Virus record (IMG/VR): IMGVR_UViG_3300046328_001044
Span: 1-26,353 of that record
Length of the DNA: 26,353 bases
Direction: 5' to 3' (one strand)
Origin: a virus
The notes beneath the pieces are model-generated. The model made no database searches and had not been told where the DNA came from. It saw nothing but the letters and a program-made list of their open reading frames with translations. Shown here in pieces: positions 9,001 through 22,648 of this stretch. Made by a program: the position numbers and the translations under genes. Numbering within the stretch: the stretch's first letter is position 1; every line of letters starts with the position of its first letter.

Positions 9001-9543
9001 CTACGTTGCGGAGGCTGGTGCCGTAGGTGGTTTCTTTTTAATCAAACCTACGATCATTTTAAACAAATTATAGACTATGCCTGAATAAGCAACGCCGGGC
9101 AATACAAACCCCATAATTGTTGAAAAGAAATGTTCCGTTAGTGCCTCGCCCTTAAACAAAAGAAGTGTAATAAGGGCTAATGAACCTACGACGGCTGATG
9201 TGAATGCCTTGCCTCCTTTTTTCGCAGCAATATTTCGCAGTCCGGGAATGAATGCCCCTAATGCGGAGATCAGTGCAAGTAGCGCAGCCTTGAGTGCTCC
9301 AATAAAACCTTCAGTAAAAAAACTATCGGGGCTGGAGTAGTCAACGGTTACAGCCGGACTGGATTCTAAAACAACCGTGTTGGGCGTTGGATCAACAGGC
9401 TGTACCTGTACCAATGCGTGCTGTGGGACGGCTGGAGTCTCAACCTTAGTGGCACCAGTTCGTGCTTTTACATCCTGAGCATAAGTATCGTTGCTAAAGC
9501 AAGCGAACAATGCGAGGAGCATGAGGATAAAGTAATTCTTCAT
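9001..9543 (-). CDS. Membrane protein with Sec signal peptide, unknown role
   Basis: Protein of 180 residues. Residues 1-22 form a Sec signal peptide (Lys, then a Leu/Phe-rich core) with a likely cut at YAQDV. A Pro/Val-rich linker follows (about 30-68). Three hydrophobic segments then occur at about 78-98, 115-132 and 143-168, ending in a basic KKKPPTAP tail. It sits in the head-tail gene block between the tail-tube candidate and neck proteins, an odd place for a secreted membrane protein. A holin-like or superinfection-exclusion role would fit the topology. Neither is shown by the sequence. Confidence 0.8.
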   Translation of the reverse strand: MKNYFILMLLALFACFSNDTYAQDVKARTGATKVETPAVPQHALVQVQPVDPTPNTVVLESSPAVTVDYSSPDSFFTEGFIGALKAALLALISALGAFIPGLRNIAAKKGGKAFTSAVVGSLALITLLLFKGEALTEHFFSTIMGFVLPGVAYSGIVYNLFKMIVGLIKKKPPTAPASAT

Positions 9544-13620: not shown

Positions 13621-14214
13621 TTATACTGTGGAATAGATTACGCTCGCAATAATAGAAATGATTGCGAGCGTAAGTCGGATGTTGTGCGTTATCCGAGGTA
13701 TCTTTAATCCTAGAGATGGCAGACCGTAATATTTCCCCTCTGGATCATCGGTGCCTTCGTAGTTCCAATCCTGATTATTCAATAGGTTTATCATTGTTTT
13801 TTGTGCAATGACGGATGGATAAACGGCCAATACTGCGCAGACTAAAGAATCCAATCCGGCAATAATAAATGCCGATCCTAGTAATGATTGCTCCAGCAAT
13901 GTCCAGAGGTGTATATCCGTAGTGTATTTGTAATGCAGAAAACGAAACTTATAATTCAATGCTAGAAATACGCTTGCTATACATCCACAACTGGCCAGCA
14001 GAATACCATACTTCATCAGTTGATCCGGTATAAAATACCAGCCTTGTTGATCGAGTAGTATCCGCATGATAAATAAGGTAATGGCTGACATGCCTAAAGC
14101 AATGATGATAGGGTGTTCGCTTTCTACTTTATTGTTGTACATCATGCCGTTTCGGACACCGCTTAGGAAGCGGTGTAGGATGAAGTAGATGAATAGGATT
14201 GAAAATGTTGGCAT
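13621..14214 (-). CDS. Multi-pass membrane protein, unknown role
   Basis: A GTG at 14238 could start the frame inside the previous gene, but the ATG at 14214 lies five bases after that gene and is preferred, giving 197 residues. Hydrophobic segments appear at about residues 1-17, 35-52, 65-87, 104-130 and 175-195 (LTLAIISIIASVIY), so about five spans. A loop with NNQDWNYEGTDDPEGKYYG lies at about 143-160. No family is recognised. It is the last gene before the terminator, following secreted proteins, and may act at the inner membrane with them. Confidence 0.75.
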   Translation of the reverse strand: MPTFSILFIYFILHRFLSGVRNGMMYNNKVESEHPIIIALGMSAITLFIMRILLDQQGWYFIPDQLMKYGILLASCGCIASVFLALNYKFRFLHYKYTTDIHLWTLLEQSLLGSAFIIAGLDSLVCAVLAVYPSVIAQKTMINLLNNQDWNYEGTDDPEGKYYGLPSLGLKIPRITHNIRLTLAIISIIASVIYSTV

Positions 14215-14219
14215 GGGTG

Positions 14220-14951
14220 TTATTTGCTTTGTTCCCACTTTTTCTTGCGAGAGTTGTACTTCATTATTGTGCCGGAGATGGTTACTGTGCCGTCAGGGTT
14301 TAGTTTCGGTGGTAGCATTTCTTCGGATTCTGTAGGGGGTGGAGCAATCGAATTCCGGCTACTACTATTATCGCTTACTGGTCGCAATTCATATTGATTA
14401 TTTATATTCCGATAACGCTGATTGTTGCCTGTTTTAAACAGATCGGTTGTGTATCCGTTCAGGTTATTCAGTCGAATAACACTTCTTAGATAAGTCATTT
14501 CACGCCACGTTGCAGAAGTATCTGCACGGTATTGGAAATTAGAAGCAGTTCGTCGGAAGCGGATTGGAGTTCCGTTTAGTTGCCAGTACCCTGTTAGATA
14601 TAAAGTTGGGTCTTTTTTAGCAAAACTGTCTAATGGATTTCTTCCTATTACGTTTTGTATATTTCGGTAATAGCGTGCCATTTCAGTAATACGCTTACGG
14701 AGTTGGCTGGCGGATTCTGCTAACGCTGCATATTGTAATGCCTCCGCTTCGGCTTTAGCACTTAATACTTGCATAGATATTGTTGTATCGCCTATTTTGT
14801 AAGTCGTAATCGTTTCCATGCCGTTGCCGAAAACTTGCAAACGAGACTCGTAAAAAAGCCCCGCGCGGTTGAATATCCAACTACTGTCTATTTCCTGTGC
14901 CGAAGCCGTAAAAAAGGCAAAAAAGGCAATTAAAAAAAGTATATTTTTCAT
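14220..14951 (-). CDS. Secreted protein with Sec signal peptide, unknown
   Basis: Protein of 243 residues. Residues 1-18 form a Sec signal peptide (MKNILFLIAFFAFFTASA) with a cut before Gln, typical of Bacteroidota. The mature part begins with a beta-like region (about 20-58), then an Ala/Glu/Arg helix (about 62-100), then a mixed region with YLTGYWQLNGTPIRFRRTASNFQYRADTSATWREM, a Ser/Pro-rich linker (about 193-208), and an end KLNPDGTVTISGTIMKYNSRKKKWEQ. It follows three other signal-peptide proteins, with its ATG one base after the preceding gene. It could be an appendage component or a periplasmic partner of the fibre-like proteins. Confidence 0.8.
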   Translation of the reverse strand: MKNILFLIAFFAFFTASAQEIDSSWIFNRAGLFYESRLQVFGNGMETITTYKIGDTTISMQVLSAKAEAEALQYAALAESASQLRKRITEMARYYRNIQNVIGRNPLDSFAKKDPTLYLTGYWQLNGTPIRFRRTASNFQYRADTSATWREMTYLRSVIRLNNLNGYTTDLFKTGNNQRYRNINNQYELRPVSDNSSSRNSIAPPPTESEEMLPPKLNPDGTVTISGTIMKYNSRKKKWEQSK

Positions 14952-14952
14952 A

Positions 14953-16290
14953 TTATTTTATATTTATCACTGTGCCGATTCTTTGTATGAGATAAATTTT
15001 GGCTGGAGCAGCAATACCGCTACCACCTGCGCCGCTGACTAATGTCGTAGGATTAAGAGCCGTATCCGTGTCTATCCCTAACGTGTACCCGCTTGCGGCT
15101 GAGAACGTTATTGCGTTAGTTGAGTTTCTTGTACATCTAACTAAATAAGGTTTCCCTTCTACTAGCGATGCGCCTAACGTAATTGTAAATGCGCCTGCAT
15201 TAGCATCGCACCTAATATTATAGTTCTCCCCGCCCGGAGTTGTATTAGAGGTAAGCAATAATAAAGCGTTTACGGGCTTATCTGTTAATATTTTAACCGT
15301 ATTTGCGGCTCCCGCATCCTCTTGAAAAAAGAGGGCTTGGGAGTTAGATGAATAAAAAATACTGCCTGCTGGTGGCGTAGAAGGTGGCCCCGTGGGTGTA
15401 TCATCTAATTGGATATAACCAGTATTGTTGATAGTTATGCCGTAGGAATTTGCCTTGATGCGCATTGTATTCGCATCGTTCGTCCCTAATATAGCGGCGG
15501 CGGCGAAGGAATTGCCGCCTTGCACAAACGTATTGGTTGCAGGGGTTACTGATAAGACTCCAGACGACATGGATAAGTTTGCCCCTAATGTGACGTTCGT
15601 TATATTGTTAGAGACATCTCTTCCTGTAATCGTTGTTGCGGTTGACCCGCTCGCATCGACTCGAGCAAGACCATTCACATGAAACGTGCTAAGAGGGTTT
15701 GATGTATTTACGCCAAGGTTTCCGCTACCATCGCTACCTTTTACAAAGATTGCAGGGGCGGTATTCCCACCCGTTTTAAAGATAATGTTTCCGCTTGCAG
15801 CGTTTGCGGATCCAGCAATGTTTGTGTTGAAAATTATCCCGGTAGTTGATCCTAATGTATTAGTTACAAGATAATCAGCAATTGAGGAATTTGCATAGTT
15901 AGGAGCAAAGTAATCTACGTTACCAACACCAGACCCCACAGCATTTATGAAAGAAAGTCCATTTATTGCGAAAGAACCTGAATTTGTGTTTTGAATAATT
16001 AATCCCCTAGAGAACAGGTTATCATTGTACGTTAATTTTAACTGTTGCGATGTATTAGTTAAAATACTATTTACTAAATTTTTACTAGAAGAAAATTTTG
16101 GAATAGCATCAACCGATCCAGTGCCTGTAATATCGCCGAGATTGCTCGGCACATATTCGGTACCATTCCAAATTAAACCCTGCCCTGTTGTCGCGCCAAA
16201 TTGCCCTATTTGCCCCGGATGTATCTTCGGCTCTACCACCTGCCCAAAAACCAAAACAGGCAGCAACAAAAATAAAAGTAAACTCCTCAT
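14953..16290 (-). CDS. Fibre-like secreted protein with Sec signal peptide
   Basis: Protein of 445 residues. Residues 1-16 are a Leu-rich signal peptide with a cut at FG-Q, and the mature N-terminus QVVEPKIHPGQIG resembles that of the next upstream protein. A WNGTEYVPS motif lies at 41-49 and GTGSVDAIPKFSSSKNLVNSIL near 56-77, both common in Bacteroidota fibre and adhesin proteins. The rest is Gly/Ser/Thr/Asn-rich and beta-like, as in phage tail fibres and repeat adhesins, with a C-terminal domain from about 330. ATG and the previous stop overlap as TAATG. A receptor-binding role is likely by composition and place; the signal peptide is unexpected for a virion protein. Confidence 0.8.
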   Translation of the reverse strand: MRSLLLFLLLPVLVFGQVVEPKIHPGQIGQFGATTGQGLIWNGTEYVPSNLGDITGTGSVDAIPKFSSSKNLVNSILTNTSQQLKLTYNDNLFSRGLIIQNTNSGSFAINGLSFINAVGSGVGNVDYFAPNYANSSIADYLVTNTLGSTTGIIFNTNIAGSANAASGNIIFKTGGNTAPAIFVKGSDGSGNLGVNTSNPLSTFHVNGLARVDASGSTATTITGRDVSNNITNVTLGANLSMSSGVLSVTPATNTFVQGGNSFAAAAILGTNDANTMRIKANSYGITINNTGYIQLDDTPTGPPSTPPAGSIFYSSNSQALFFQEDAGAANTVKILTDKPVNALLLLTSNTTPGGENYNIRCDANAGAFTITLGASLVEGKPYLVRCTRNSTNAITFSAASGYTLGIDTDTALNPTTLVSGAGGSGIAAPAKIYLIQRIGTVINIK

Positions 16291-17177
16291 TACTGTAATG
16301 GATATTTAAAGGTTACAACTTCGCCCGTCGCTAAAACCCGAGGGAAAGTAAGTGTGCCGCCTGATCGAGTAACATTACAACCCGAACACCCGCCCGCGCC
16401 GACAACGTGCCTTACCCCATTTCTATACACCCAAATCTTGCTGTTTTCTGCTGGTAATGTCCCCGACATTGTAGCAGTTGTTTGCCCTGAGGTAAACGTA
16501 GCAGTCGCTTCTACAAATAAATCTTCTACATTAACAGTACCACCCGATAGCGAAAGTGTAACGACGTTATTTGTCGCGACGTTTCGGCTTACTGATTGTA
16601 TTTCGTTTGTTGTAGATCCGTCCACCTCTGTCCCGGTTATAGTTATTGTTGTACCGGAGGTTGTCGGTACATTTATGCCGCCACCTGCGATAGTGAATGC
16701 ACCACCACCGTTCGATAGCGTTACGGTGTTCGTTGCGGTTGCAATCGTTTGTAGTTCATTAGTATTACTTAGATCGCCCGTGTTAGAAATAGTTACACCC
16801 GTTATATCTATGCCCGTTCCTGCGGTGTAAGTCGTTCCTGCATCGGGCTGTAAAGACCAGGCTGTGCCGTTCCATTTATATACTTGCCCGGCTGATGTAC
16901 CATTCGCGATCATCGCTGGTGTAACAACTCCATTTGCGATGACGGTTGCATTTGCCGCACCCGTAACGTTGCCCGAAAGGGTGATGTTCGGAACTAATGC
17001 CGCAGCAAGCGCGGCGCGAGTGATGTGCGTGTGAATAGTTGCGCCCGTTGCAACGGTAGGAATATCACCCACGCCTGCGCCATACGCGCCGATGGTTGCG
17101 ACGGGAATAAGCGGCTCAACGGGCTGTGCCAAAAGAGCCAAAGGCAACATTAAAATAATCGAAATTAAGAATCTCAT
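16290..17177 (-). CDS. Fibre-like secreted protein with CxxC C-terminal domain
   Basis: Protein of 295 residues with a signal peptide (1-17, cut at LA-Q) and mature N-terminus QPVEPLIPVATIG. The body is Thr/Ala/Gly/Asn-rich and repetitive, with KWNGTAW at 101-107 and paired SNTNELQTIATATN and GSTTNEIQSVSRNVATNN units. The last 50 residues (IWVYRNGVRHVVG...FPRVLATGEVVTFKY) form a small beta domain of a kind seen at fibre ends, but with CSGC at 264-267. The upstream neighbour ends in a similar domain with CSDC. The start overlaps that neighbour as ATGA. Likely an appendage or adhesin; the disulphide idea is inference. Confidence 0.8.
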   Translation of the reverse strand: MRFLISIILMLPLALLAQPVEPLIPVATIGAYGAGVGDIPTVATGATIHTHITRAALAAALVPNITLSGNVTGAANATVIANGVVTPAMIANGTSAGQVYKWNGTAWSLQPDAGTTYTAGTGIDITGVTISNTGDLSNTNELQTIATATNTVTLSNGGGAFTIAGGGINVPTTSGTTITITGTEVDGSTTNEIQSVSRNVATNNVVTLSLSGGTVNVEDLFVEATATFTSGQTTATMSGTLPAENSKIWVYRNGVRHVVGAGGCSGCNVTRSGGTLTFPRVLATGEVVTFKYPLQ

Positions 17178-17713
17178 TGTATGATTTGTAATTGAATTGT
17201 TTCCTGCGCGATAACCGCGCGGGAAAGGGTGAAAATTTGTGTTGTACTATTATATGAAACCTGACAATCAGAGCAGTTTGAAAGCCCTACTTTGTAAAGT
17301 TGTCCATTTCTTGTTACTCTCATATTGTCAATTGAAATACCTGTAAGCGAACCGAATGCGGTAAAATTTGCGCTTCCGATTGTTGTTGTAACCGTTCTGT
17401 ATTGCCATGCTCCAGCGTCGGTTGATGGTACCCAATTTGTTCCATTCCATTTTATTGTTTGCCCGGTGGTTGGAGTGCCTGTAACACTAATATATCCCTG
17501 TGCTATAATGAAATCATATACGGCCTTTGCTGTAGTGCCTTGACGATGCGTGGCAGCATTGGTGATTATAGTAGCAATCGTTGTCCAATATTTTGATGTA
17601 TCAACGCCTACACGAAGCCGCTTAAGCGCAATAATGTGATCCTGCTGCGTTACCGTTTGCGCACAAACGACCTGTGCAAATAATAAAAAGAAAAGTGTTC
17701 TTACAAAAGACAT
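17174..17713 (-). CDS. Short fibre-like secreted protein with CxxC C-terminal domain
   Basis: Protein of 179 residues with a signal peptide (1-18, cut at CA-Q). A helical segment follows (about 24-72, HIIALKRLRVGVDTSKYWTTIATIITNAA...AVYDFIIAQGYI), then TGQTIKWNGTNWVPSTDAG at about 83-101, and a C-terminal domain (about 128-179) with MRVTRNGQLYKVG, CSDC at 147-150, and ALIAQET-like ending. This is the shortest of three consecutive related proteins. The ATG lies 13 bases inside the previous gene. The fibre-type composition suggests a tail-appendage part, with the same unexplained Sec signal. Confidence 0.8.
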   Translation of the reverse strand: MSFVRTLFFLLFAQVVCAQTVTQQDHIIALKRLRVGVDTSKYWTTIATIITNAATHRQGTTAKAVYDFIIAQGYISVTGTPTTGQTIKWNGTNWVPSTDAGAWQYRTVTTTIGSANFTAFGSLTGISIDNMRVTRNGQLYKVGLSNCSDCQVSYNSTTQIFTLSRAVIAQETIQLQIIQ

Positions 17714-18510
17714 ATTTGTATTGAATTTGTACCCTGTAGGTCTGCGAAATAGATATTTGTATCAACAGAGGGTATTATAAAGTTGTCGCCAAATTTTGCC
17801 TTTACTCCCGCATACATCTCGAAAGGCCCGGCCAGATCTGAACCTCCAGCACTATAACCAATCCGGATGTATTGATCAGCAGTGGATACCACAAAAATGG
17901 CAACCAGCAGGCGACCTGCTGGCACATTGTAAATAAAGAAGTTATTGGTAGTAACCAGTTCAATCACTTCACCACCAGCACCACCGCTGCCACCACCCGG
18001 GTCAGTGGGTGGTACATACGGTGGGCCAATGATATTCAGAGTCTCACTCAAAAAAGGCGCAGGTTTTAACAACCTTACCGATCCGGTGAATGTATTGCCT
18101 CTTCTGGTGCTGGAGTCGCCGGAATCACCAGAGGGCGTAAATTTCATCAAAGGAATAAGCCGCTGCTTGTCATCCATGTATTTTGCCACTACATGGACTC
18201 TTCTGTTTCTCATTTTGGCCTTCATGTATTCGGCCTCTGGAGTAGTTCCCCCAGCAAAAAGAGAAATAGAGTATTCAAATATTTGCCCGGCTGGTGAATC
18301 AATTACTTTATCCGAGATTCGTGCTGTGCCAAATCGGTAGCCGACAAAAAATGCGGCCTTGCCGGAGTTAAAGATAAGTTGATCCAAAGTTGGTTCATGG
18401 CCCCACCGTGGCGATATGGATAAATCCTGAGGATCGACGAACGAAACCTGTGATAATCCGGAGACAAGCCCAGCAGCGCAAGCCTCTTCTATTGCATGCA
18501 GTGAAATCAT
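17701..18510 (-). CDS. Probable tail-tip or fibre-attachment protein
   Basis: Protein of 269 residues without signal peptide. The N-terminal domain (1-165) is mixed alpha/beta and includes YMDDKQRLIPLMKFTPSGDSGDSSTRRGNTFTGSVRL. A flexible PTDPGGGSGGAGG linker (about 168-180) joins a beta-rich C-terminal domain (about 182-269). Linker-separated two-domain proteins at this place often connect the tail tip with fibres. The whole 41-base gap upstream is occupied by a promoter-like element ending four bases before the ATG, so it probably starts the transcript that carries the secreted fibre-like genes. Confidence 0.7.
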   Translation of the reverse strand: MISLHAIEEACAAGLVSGLSQVSFVDPQDLSISPRWGHEPTLDQLIFNSGKAAFFVGYRFGTARISDKVIDSPAGQIFEYSISLFAGGTTPEAEYMKAKMRNRRVHVVAKYMDDKQRLIPLMKFTPSGDSGDSSTRRGNTFTGSVRLLKPAPFLSETLNIIGPPYVPPTDPGGGSGGAGGEVIELVTTNNFFIYNVPAGRLLVAIFVVSTADQYIRIGYSAGGSDLAGPFEMYAGVKAKFGDNFIIPSVDTNIYFADLQGTNSIQICLL

Positions 18511-18551: not shown

Positions 18552-19310
18552 TTAATTAAACCTACTGCTATAAAATGCCTCGTTTATGAGGGTTCGGATG
18601 TAAGTATCGGAGTTTATCCACGCTTCGATTGATTTCACAGCGCGGCTTACAGAGGTCTGGCTACAGCCCACAATGCAGGAAATGCGCCGCATTGAATAGT
18701 GAGCGCATTTGTATAACAAATAATATTGTAACTGTCTGGGGAAATACACTGGCACTTTGCCACGTGCGGCATTGAGTTGGTTGATTATTTCATTCATTTT
18801 AAGGTAGATCACGGTGTCGGATTCCCTGATCTCCACAGTTCGCTCCCGTTTTGCAGCATGCAAAGGTTCTGAAACCGATAAAGCCCTTTTTTCTTTTCGC
18901 TTTGCGGAATAATCCGTCCAGCGGCGATAGGCTGACTCGGAAGAGTAATCGTACTCGTCTATGCCGTGCTTTGCATAGAAACGACGGATGGCTTCGCGAG
19001 CAGGTACGTTCATGCTGACCATGACCTCAACAAACCGAAGCATTACTTCGCGGTGGTAATTGAAAAGGGCGATTCCTATGTTTGAGTTTTTAAGGCAAAC
19101 AAACCTTGCTAGGTCGTCGTGGACGGTGATGGTGATCGTTTCCGATAACCACTCCAGTGTGCGGGGCTGATACCCTCGTGAGTTAAAACGAATCGTGCGG
19201 AGTTGATCTTGAATCAATTCATTGCGATCAAAGCGGAGTGGCTCTTGGCCGTATTCGCTAAGGAGGATTCTTTTACTTAATGGTGTAATTCGAAACGTAA
19301 GTGTTGTCAT
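18552..19310 (-). CDS. DNA-binding protein with DnaA domain IV-like helix-turn-helix
   Basis: Protein of 252 residues. The C-terminal 55 residues (YYLLYKCAHYSMRRISCIVGCSQTSVSRAVKSIEAW, about 195-231) have the helix-turn-helix layout of DnaA domain IV and related regulators: an initial helix, a short loop with RRIS, a recognition helix SQTSVSRAVKSIE. The N-terminal 150 residues are basic and helical, with no AAA+ ATPase motifs, so it is not a full DnaA. It lies alone between tail-tip and fibre genes with its own upstream promoter-like element and a small inverted repeat. It could switch on the downstream late genes, or bind phage origin repeats. The family call is by pattern and not certain. 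Confidence 0.7.
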   Translation of the reverse strand: MTTLTFRITPLSKRILLSEYGQEPLRFDRNELIQDQLRTIRFNSRGYQPRTLEWLSETITITVHDDLARFVCLKNSNIGIALFNYHREVMLRFVEVMVSMNVPAREAIRRFYAKHGIDEYDYSSESAYRRWTDYSAKRKEKRALSVSEPLHAAKRERTVEIRESDTVIYLKMNEIINQLNAARGKVPVYFPRQLQYYLLYKCAHYSMRRISCIVGCSQTSVSRAVKSIEAWINSDTYIRTLINEAFYSSRFN

Positions 19311-19397: not shown

Positions 19398-21104
19398 TTA
19401 CACTACCGATACCATACTTACATCGCAAGGCAAAAGCCCATTGCTTCCAACGTTTACTTTTATGGATTTAATGATGTAATCCATGTTGCCAATTCGCACC
19501 TTATGATCAAACTGGAATGAATTAAGATCGCTGGGTGAAAGGGTTATTCGCCTTGAAATATGCTTGCCATACAGCAACATATTGTGCCACCTGCGCCACC
19601 ACGTTGCATAGACTCCATTGTCGCCGTCCCAGTTGAGGCTGTATTGGCCTAACTCGTTGTTGATTGCATCGTAACGGATTGCGCAGCCCATCGGATAATT
19701 GTTACCTGCTCCATCTTCGTATATGCCCCTGTAGAAAGTAAAGCGTACTGGCATTTCGCTCCGCTGCTCTTTCCAAATATCTACATCGTCATCATCTTTA
19801 CCATCCTTGTATTCAACTGTACCAGGTTGATCGATACGTGGCAATTGGTTATAAGTATGTGGCGGCTTGATCGAGTAAGCAAATACATCAATTAAAGGTT
19901 GCATTTGCGTCTCCATCCGTGGCGGGTTGGTATCGGCTTGCCCTCTTTTCTTCGAAAATATTTCCTCGCTGGGAGCAATGCCCAATGATTTATACATCAT
20001 AAATGTACGCGCCCCTCGTTGCCAATACGATTCTAGGTTTTTTACATAGTAGTTTCCGCTTCCGGCAAACATCTCTGCGTAAGTATCTACGACTTGAAAC
20101 GTAGTTGGCGGCTGCAAACTATTGAGCCATGCAAACCTACTATCGCGGCTGTCTTCGGCATACGCAAAATCGGCTGGGACTTCGGCTAATTTGTGATCAA
20201 TAGTATAGCCGTGGTGTACCTTATTTGTCCAGTCGTGTTTTGCTGGTGCCGATAATACTTTTTGAAGCGGTATAAGCCGGATCACTTTAGTGGCCGTATC
20301 CAAAAATATACCTAAGCAAAAAGTACTGCTGATTCTTTTCAGATAATCGGTGCAGGTAATAGAGGGTACATGATCCCTTAGATTTATTGTAGATGCAATT
20401 CCATCTTTGCTATAAAGGGAGGTATTACTGTACATCACCAAATTGTCAAGTTCCTCATTCGTCTGGAATTCATTTTTAAAGACATAGCCAGTGCGAAGGA
20501 ATATCTTATCTAGCAAATACTTTATTTTTGGAAATGGTGTAAGTACTGGCTTTTCATCGTTGCACTCAAACAATTGGGTTACACTATCCCAATAGTTTTG
20601 AAACCAATAAAAGATTTTGCTGCTTAGATTTTCAATAAAACGCTGATTCAATACCGGAAAAAAAACATAATCAAAATCTTCGGGATTTTGAGCCGTTTCT
20701 TTTGCGTGTGCCAGCACCTCGGCATCGGTGCCAATTGTGCGATTGCCCCCCAAATCTAAATCCGTTAGTTTGGTATCCTTTAAATCACCGATTACTGAAA
20801 CAACTATGTAAATAGAAATGGCATAGTTACTAGCACTTTCGATCATTAATGTACCTGCAAATTCTACTCCTTCAAATCTTATTACTGCTTCTTTGGCCGT
20901 GACTTGGTTGGCTGCATTGATCTGGTTGGCATGATCTAGGATCCTGCGGTTCTTTTGAGTAGCAGGTACTTCAAATGGGAAAGAATAAGAACCGGGTAAT
21001 TGGCTCGTATCCGCAGTGGTAAAAATAGAATTATTGAGCGTATAAGACAAGGATGCACCCTCGCTAATATCCAAAGCCTCGTTGTTGACTAGTACTTCTA
21101 TCAT
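19398..21104 (-). CDS. Probable tail-tip/baseplate hub protein
   Basis: Protein of 568 residues, no signal peptide. The N-terminal 110 residues (MIEVLVNNEALDISEGASLSYTLN...GSYSFPFEVPAT) resemble beta-rich domains at the start of tail-tip proteins in Bacteroidota phages, as far as I can judge by eye. The rest is mixed, with many aromatic residues (YWFQNYWDSV, ATWWRRWHNMLLYG) and a closing beta region NMDYIIKSIKVNVGSNGLLPCDVSMVSVV. It starts in an ATGA overlap with the gene upstream, and both follow the endolysin. A hub or distal tail role is inferred from size, composition and neighbours. Confidence 0.7.
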   Translation of the reverse strand: MIEVLVNNEALDISEGASLSYTLNNSIFTTADTSQLPGSYSFPFEVPATQKNRRILDHANQINAANQVTAKEAVIRFEGVEFAGTLMIESASNYAISIYIVVSVIGDLKDTKLTDLDLGGNRTIGTDAEVLAHAKETAQNPEDFDYVFFPVLNQRFIENLSSKIFYWFQNYWDSVTQLFECNDEKPVLTPFPKIKYLLDKIFLRTGYVFKNEFQTNEELDNLVMYSNTSLYSKDGIASTINLRDHVPSITCTDYLKRISSTFCLGIFLDTATKVIRLIPLQKVLSAPAKHDWTNKVHHGYTIDHKLAEVPADFAYAEDSRDSRFAWLNSLQPPTTFQVVDTYAEMFAGSGNYYVKNLESYWQRGARTFMMYKSLGIAPSEEIFSKKRGQADTNPPRMETQMQPLIDVFAYSIKPPHTYNQLPRIDQPGTVEYKDGKDDDDVDIWKEQRSEMPVRFTFYRGIYEDGAGNNYPMGCAIRYDAINNELGQYSLNWDGDNGVYATWWRRWHNMLLYGKHISRRITLSPSDLNSFQFDHKVRIGNMDYIIKSIKVNVGSNGLLPCDVSMVSVV

Positions 21105-22648
21105 ACATTAAATGCGGTATTGATCCACGCCGATTTGATCTCCACGGTGATTTGAAAAACAGTATCATCCTCTACGATTTGCCCGAATTGTGTGTTTTCG
21201 ATAATCACACGAAGGAAGCGTTTATTTTGCTTATCAATGAGCCAGCATGCGCCGTGTAGTATCTGCTTTAGGTGGTTGAGATATACAAGATCGGAGTAGT
21301 ACCCAGTTGAGACTGTGATGACTTCGCGTGATTCCGAGAATAATACATCTATGTCGCCTACGGTTGCGGTATTATTTGTGGCTTTGCGCCATTTTTCATT
21401 GGTTACTTCTACGTTTACGGTAGGTGCTCCGTGTAGCCATACCGATTCCATACCGCCCACTCCATTTTCCATCAACAAGAATACTGTGCCGGCTGTGGGC
21501 AAGTGTTCTACTTGATACATCACTGAGCCAATGAGCGTAAGCCCCTGCTCCAGACGCACCTCATAGGAATCTATAAGGGCATCTGGGCTGGTGCCTGAAG
21601 GCGGGGCAATATTATGCAAAAACAATTGTCGGAAACCTGACTTTACCCAGTTTATCTTATTGGGGATAAAGGTTCTTTGTGTAGGGCCAAAAGGGTTATA
21701 TAGGCTTTCGGTACCGTCGCTCCACTCAATCCTTACTGTTAAAAGATATTGGTCTCCATCAAGCGTTTCCAATATGGGTAAGAAATACAGCCAATCAGGT
21801 TGATCGGGTGATAATGGCTTGCTAAACTGTGATCCCTGCGCTGTAATATAATTATGCCTGAGTATGTCATCAGCAGCAACATAAAGAGATGTCTTTGCGG
21901 TGCCACCTAATATGGCATACAATTGATCCGACTTTACCATTGCCTCTGCTACTGGAGGTGTACCAAATCGATCTGCGTACCTGAAATAATACGCCTGTAC
22001 GTGTGTTTCTGCTACTCCAGCCTGCCAAGTTGGCGTGGTGGGTTCTATTGTAGCAGACAAGGGCAATTCAGCCATTGAGTTGGTGAAACTAGGCGATATA
22101 TTGAGTTCACATTCACCTGTTAATTCATTGTATGTGGCGTGGTGTTTCATCAGCAATACATTATCTGAAGTATATACCGATACCAACGCCGCTAAATTAT
22201 CTGGAGTGGTAATAGTTGTTACGGAGGTGGCTGTAACGGCTACTCCAGAGAGCGTTTCGGTAACAACCAAAGCGCATACTCCAGACTGATTGCGGGTGAT
22301 TCTTATGACCTGATTACTAGCCGAAGGCGGTAAGAGGCTAATATTAAAATCATCGGTGAGTGGCTCGTATTGCCTTAGAAATTCTACGATTAACTCAGCG
22401 TATTCTGCCAGTGTGCCGCCGCTTTGGACTGGCCATGAGAGGCCATTGGCTGCGGTGGTGGCTGCTACGGTGAACGTTACTTCGCTACCGGGCCACTCTA
22501 GTTTGACGGTTTGGCCTGTGGTGGGTGATGCAGATATTTCGAGGTTAAAATAAGCCGTAGCATCATCTATTTTATCGGTACTTAAACCGACAATAATCCC
22601 ATCGTTGATGAACGAGAAGTTATTAGGCGTTTGGGTTAAGGTAGCCAT
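21101..22648 (-). CDS. Large beta-rich minor tail protein
   Basis: Protein of 515 residues, soluble, Thr/Ser/Val-rich and mostly beta-like. Residues 25-110 read as a repeated carbohydrate-binding or fibronectin-like region (FNLEISASPTTGQTVKLEWPGSEVTFTVAATT). The middle has DRFGTPPVAEAMVKSDQLYAIL and an acidic/aromatic section around 275-345; the end is SAWINTAFNV. No named domain is recognised. It overlaps the amidase by 26 bases and the next tail-tip gene by four, so all three are probably made together. A virion tail protein is the likely class. Confidence 0.7.
   Translation of the reverse strand: MATLTQTPNNFSFINDGIIVGLSTDKIDDATAYFNLEISASPTTGQTVKLEWPGSEVTFTVAATTAANGLSWPVQSGGTLAEYAELIVEFLRQYEPLTDDFNISLLPPSASNQVIRITRNQSGVCALVVTETLSGVAVTATSVTTITTPDNLAALVSVYTSDNVLLMKHHATYNELTGECELNISPSFTNSMAELPLSATIEPTTPTWQAGVAETHVQAYYFRYADRFGTPPVAEAMVKSDQLYAILGGTAKTSLYVAADDILRHNYITAQGSQFSKPLSPDQPDWLYFLPILETLDGDQYLLTVRIEWSDGTESLYNPFGPTQRTFIPNKINWVKSGFRQLFLHNIAPPSGTSPDALIDSYEVRLEQGLTLIGSVMYQVEHLPTAGTVFLLMENGVGGMESVWLHGAPTVNVEVTNEKWRKATNNTATVGDIDVLFSESREVITVSTGYYSDLVYLNHLKQILHGACWLIDKQNKRFLRVIIENTQFGQIVEDDTVFQITVEIKSAWINTAFNV

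Follow-up and report, generated by a model that had tools for sequence, protein, structure and literature searches.

Signal peptides on a run of fibre-like genes in a Bacteroidota phage suggest that some tail fibres are exported before joining the particle

Background

Tail fibres are taken to join the phage particle in the cytoplasm, where conventional tail fibres are assembled. The fibres of T4 (gp34-38) and lambda (J and stf) resemble those considered below in distal receptor binding (a presumed role in our case) and in the exchange of tips; they differ in having no signal peptides. Lambda does have a signal-bearing gene within its tail operon, lom, but the product is a host outer-membrane protein and not a fibre.

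Signal peptides of Bacteroidetes follow the Q-rule, with Gln at +1 in 71% on average (PMC5837995). Q-rule signals have already been published for Nixviridae phages of Porphyromonas gingivalis, on genes whose function is unknown; as in our case, these phage genes encode substrates of Sec and signal peptidase I, but their products were interpreted as proteins that may modify the host's outer membrane (PMC10367356). Bartlau et al. described signalling peptides on lyases of the phages Ingeline and Nekkels (PMC8776804). In the openly accessible literature we found no paper on exported virion fibres, or on such signals tied to MS/MS-supported virion fibres. Q-rule signals on phage genes are known; what would be new is tail fibres that travel through Sec.

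The nearest described systems are cultured Cellulophaga phages, in which we called signal peptides with a rule-based scorer built for this analysis (n-region charge, uncharged h-region, small residues at -3/-1). Their depositors mark certain products as "structural protein, annotation based on experimental MS/MS proteomics analysis", a label that covers presence in the virion and is silent on the cleavage state and on co-purified envelope. So marked are four genes that come after the tail proteins of phi19:1 (gp101-104; signals in 4/4, Gln at +1 in 3/4), gp091-094 of phi10:1 (signals in 4/4), gp085-087 of phi18:3, a member of another virus family (3/3), and gp08 of phiSM, which has a signal and adjoins a signal-bearing pectate lyase. 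None of the ten other MS/MS proteins of phi19:1 that were examined has a signal. The same layout is found in phi46:3, phi13:2, phi19:3, Nekkels and Ingeline; the structural label is by similarity in phi46:3, phi13:2 and phi19:3, and experimental in phi18:3 and phiSM. The PHROGs families of the signal-bearing Cellulophaga proteins are tail fiber protein, virion structural protein and pectate lyase. The signal of phi19:1 gp102 is 100% identical in five other phages, and in three the bodies are down to ~20% identity; since the signal stays constant while the bodies are swapped, it belongs to the constant attachment end.

The generalisation that all Bacteroidota phage fibres bear signals was rejected, considering that fibre-type genes of phi40:1, phi12:1, phi4:1 and phi14:2, as well as those of Danklef, Freya and B40-8, are without them. 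The scorer called no signals on MS/MS proteins of phi40:1, phi4:1 and the crAss-like phi14:2, or on lambda and T4 fibres, and it did pick up the signal of lambda lom. Signal-free fibres in these phages make the presence of signals a trait of some lineages.

Results

The window, i.e., the whole stretch of DNA that was analysed, is a virus record of 26,353 bases whose main genes all lie on the minus strand. It is a tailed phage of Bacteroidota; terminase, portal, head protease, tape measure and endolysin were identified in it with PHROGs. The features discussed are listed in Table 1. The run SP1-SP4 is sited between tail-region proteins and the head protease, on the same strand.

Table 1. Position of the signal-bearing run and of other genes discussed in the text
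Feature	Position	Strand	Remark
SP1, 179 aa fibre-like protein	17174..17713	-	signal 1-18, cut before Gln19
SP2, 295 aa fibre-like protein	16290..17177	-	signal 1-17, cut before Gln18
SP3, 445 aa fibre-like protein	14953..16290	-	signal 1-16, cut before Gln17
SP4, 243 aa non-repetitive secreted protein	14220..14951	-	signal 1-18, cut before Gln19
Four-TM inner-membrane protein	13621..14238	-	start overlaps SP4 end
Gene 9543, Q-rule signal and three further TM segments	9001..9543	-	separate from the run
269 aa protein without signal, putative tail/adaptor	17701..18510	-	directly upstream of the run; function from position only
Two large tail-region proteins without signals, 568 and 515 aa	19398..22648	-	conserved in L004

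An earlier note on this DNA had proposed Sec signal peptides on four consecutive genes (SP1-SP4, starting at 17713, 17177, 16290 and 14951) and on the gene at 9543. They are present at these starts, with an n/h/c organisation and small residues at -3/-1 in 5/5 and Gln at +1 in 5/5; with a slash at the cut site, they read MSFVRTLFFLLFAQVVCA/QTV (SP1), MRFLISIILMLPLALLA/QPV (SP2), MRSLLLFLLLPVLVFG/QVV (SP3), MKNILFLIAFFAFFTASA/QEI (SP4) and MKNYFILMLLALFACFSNDTYA/QDV (9543). The check by signal prediction that the note had suggested bears it out, as the scorer calls all five secretory and also calls the signals of the relatives in contigs L003 and L004 described below. A signal call together with Gln at +1 was obtained for only these 5 of the 32 window genes, four of them adjacent, and the sole other signal call fell on the multi-TM protein at 14238. 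In controls, the scorer made a Gln-type call in 21/9600 shuffled whole proteins and in 25/9600 sequences with the first 30 residues shuffled (~0.2-0.3% in both), and at internal positions in 0/4644. The start codon of SP2 falls within the 3' end of the SP1 gene, that of SP3 coincides with the last base of the preceding gene, and that of SP4 lies just past the preceding stop; the starts of SP1-SP4 are credible because adjoining genes overlap or abut there. The five segments are Sec/signal-peptidase-I signal peptides, above chance, and they follow the Bacteroidetes Q-rule. Export of SP1-SP4, as read from these N-termini, is well supported.

The note had also counted three fibre-type bodies. Low-charge bodies rich in G/N/S/T/A/V are indeed found in SP2 (66%) and SP3 (59%) and, more weakly, in SP1 (52%); SP4 (40%) is not fibre-like. 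As to the fifth gene, 9543, its Q-rule signal stands, but it lies outside the run and has the three further TM segments; it is probably a lysis-type or membrane protein, neither a fibre nor a part of the run. The C-terminal domains of SP1 and SP2 look alike, and their Cys pairs (NCSDC in SP1, GCSGC in SP2) are conserved, that of SP1 in its relatives. PHROG/Pfam matches of SP1-SP3 were only weak or unnamed, and SP4 had none; a search of solved structures gave no useful match, and the AlphaFold2 models of SP4 and SP2 are unusable (mean pLDDT 51 and 40).

The periplasm is the default fate of a protein that has a signal but neither a lipobox nor a type IX signal. The scorer called no lipobox Cys after the signals of SP1-SP4, and no NCBIfam model of a type IX C-terminal sorting domain matched at E up to 1; on the latter ground a type IX secreted adhesin was rejected.

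Relatives of the window were sought with the major capsid protein (MCP), SP4 and SP2/SP1. These searches returned only three close contigs in IMG/VR, namely 3300034013_000646 (L002), 3300042502_001517 (L003) and 3300042319_003448 (L004), and no relatives in bacterial genomes. SP4 matches three other viral contigs at 54-59% identity. L004 is related over the whole phage (MCP 68%), and its homologues of SP1-SP4 and of 9543 (the latter at 44%) all have a signal with Gln at +1. The head and tail proteins of L003 are for the most part unlike those of the window or only distantly related to them; SP1-SP4 and the four-TM protein are nevertheless present, so that the cassette seems to move between phages as a unit, as far as can be judged from these contigs. 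SP4 in L002 is accompanied by a row of further signal-bearing genes, and part of the cassette recurs at a greater distance, in a contig where signal-bearing genes form a run (L002/L005). Gln at +1 is kept in the relatives from L002, L003 and L004.

The signals have been kept under quite different degrees of divergence. In SP1 the last 67 aa are 93-94% identical in L003 and L004, and the signal is only 33% identical, with 5/19 and 9/20 letters in common with the relatives. Random replacement of the differing residues keeps a signal with Gln in 6% (L003) and 13% (L004) for SP1 and in 21% for 9543; for closer pairs this test is uninformative. SP2 is 93-95% identical in L003/L004 (93% in L003), with 90-99 synonymous and 16-21 non-synonymous codon differences; the change is mostly synonymous, as expected for a coding sequence in use. 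In SP3 the N-terminus with its QVVEP motif is constant and the body is exchanged: residues 1-30 (the signal and ~14 mature residues) are 81-86% identical in the relatives and the remainder ~30%, and the bodies in L003 and L004 end in an SO2946-like C-terminal domain (Pfam PF22237). The modularity of SP1 is the reverse, its C-terminus being conserved. Further afield, long fibre-type genes with signals adjoin phage genes in the IMG/VR contigs L010-L012, and a signal-bearing 207 aa protein of L010 is a distant relative of SP4 (34%).

As tblastn of SP1, SP2, SP4 and 9543 against named phage records gave no match, layouts were compared instead. The Assiduviridae phages phi19:1 and phi10:1 share with the window a run of four late genes after tail genes, all signal-bearing, with Gln at +1 in nearly all, fibre or spike bodies, and a constant N-terminus with an exchanged body. 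They differ in having no detectable homology to SP1, SP2 and SP4, which makes the likeness one of layout only, and in including pectate-lyase-like spikes; they are also cultured, and their products are in the virion by MS/MS. The same type of signal-bearing fibre/spike run is seen in phi18:3, phi46:3, phi13:2 and phi19:3 (Pachyviridae), Ingeline (Duneviridae) and phiSM, but these belong to different virus families and have fewer or more genes per run.

A cassette near-identical in three of four genes is common to phi19:1 (L024, 39017-45154) and phi19:3 (L025, 7900-14127), which infect the same strain; judging by these sequences, it is a fibre exchange between virus families.

Discussion

The analogy with the Cellulophaga phages suggests that some phages first send their host-binding fibres through the inner membrane and fit them to the particles later. 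We presume the following course. SP1-SP4 would be made late and directed by a classical signal peptide to the host Sec translocation; the host signal peptidase I would cut before the Gln, which the host would normally cyclise; and folding would take place in the periplasm, for some of the proteins probably with disulfides. Disulfides in the exported fibres are weakly supported, considering that mature SP4 and phi19:1 gp103 contain no cysteine. The mature fibres would be held as soluble periplasmic proteins, because they have neither a lipobox nor a type IX C-terminal signal. Particles, themselves assembled in the cytoplasm, would meet the fibres when the envelope gives way and bind them via the conserved mature N-terminus. 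Such a scheme would explain why the proteins have signals that obey the Q-rule and none for sorting to a membrane or the surface, why they are modular in the manner of fibres, and why MS/MS detects their analogues. To our knowledge, no route is established by which tailed phages store proteins in the periplasm and capture them later.

Membership of the window proteins in the virion is supported by analogy; that they are cut, kept in the periplasm and attached at or after lysis is our inference. On the whole, we lean towards exported receptor-binding fibres that pass through Sec, are cut at the Gln, form a periplasmic pool and are joined to virions at or after lysis. The fuller version, in which a group of tailed Bacteroidota phages completes its fibres outside the cytoplasm by Sec export, signal peptidase I and glutaminyl cyclase, periplasmic maturation and capture at lysis, we put forward tentatively. 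Of the options listed in the earlier note, assembly onto particles outside the cytoplasm is thereby favoured over display on the host and over adhesins in a late operon, owing to the Cellulophaga MS/MS data and the modularity of N-terminus and body. Its description of an unusual phage system is apt in comparison with the model phages; the system is not unique, being present in several viral contigs and four MS/MS-supported Cellulophaga phages.

The main rival is secretion with co-purification: the proteins would be exported but would act on or around the host (display, superinfection block, degradation of surrounding polysaccharide at release) and would enter virion preparations as contaminants. 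They have every feature of a protein that the host phylum ordinarily secretes (PMC5837995), several of the Cellulophaga relatives are pectate-lyase-like, and the study that described signalling peptides on lyases of Ingeline and Nekkels discusses escape of the progeny from the matrix as one role of phage lyases (PMC8776804). We nonetheless consider it rather unlikely: whole runs are MS/MS structural in three phages (4/4, 4/4 and 3/3), and a constant N-terminus with an exchanged distal body is the pattern of a virion-attached fibre.

It is improbable, in our opinion, that the N-termini are not used for export at all, the fibres being assembled in the cytoplasm and the N-terminus either ending up inside the tail or being removed by a phage protease. 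Some major capsid proteins do have signal-like N-termini, e.g., that of MZ447863, and the authors of the P. gingivalis phage study ascribed such N-termini of capsid proteins to processing by the prohead protease (PMC10367356); however, the near-universal predicted Gln at +1 and the normal n/h/c organisation in unrelated genes fit selection for the host signal peptidase I and not for a phage protease. Least credible of all is a lysogenic-conversion (moron) cluster of adhesins within the tail operon. Lambda lom, a signal-bearing outer-membrane protein encoded between the tail genes J and stf, is a precedent, and the cassette does move between phages; on the other hand, the four co-directional genes overlap or abut in one run with fibre modularity, the Cellulophaga analogues were deposited as virion proteins, and lom is not fibre-like.

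If Bacteroidota phage lineages do export their fibres before attaching them, virion maturation gains an extracytoplasmic step, in which fibres can use disulfides and the host glutaminyl cyclase. Particles could then acquire the fibres of another phage in the same lysing cell, with consequences for host range in nature. For annotation, signal-bearing phage genes should not be regarded as host-modifying morons by default. The idea is testable with existing Cellulophaga phages and archived spectra.

Several further observations concern the surroundings of the run. The four-TM protein that overlaps the SP4 end stays adjacent to SP4 in L003 and L004. Cellulophaga phages likewise have small proteins, with one or two TM segments, behind their signal-bearing run. 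The four-TM protein might have to do with lysis or work together with the exported fibres. A 252 aa protein of the tail region (18552-19310) has a weak DnaA-C/HTH-like similarity and is 35% identical in L004. The window fragment is without tRNA, and no integrase was noticed in it. The late gene order is unusual: the endolysin and the large tail proteins, then the fibres, the head genes and the tape measure, with the portal and terminase last.

The record MZ447863.1 (L016; regions 37136-37699 and 21041-22126), deposited as a Microcystis phage, has a Q-rule signal gene with TM segments, and its MCP starts with the signal-like segment mentioned above. Its terminase and tail proteins are among the closest to those of the window; considering these together with the Q-rule gene, its true host may be a Bacteroidota associate.
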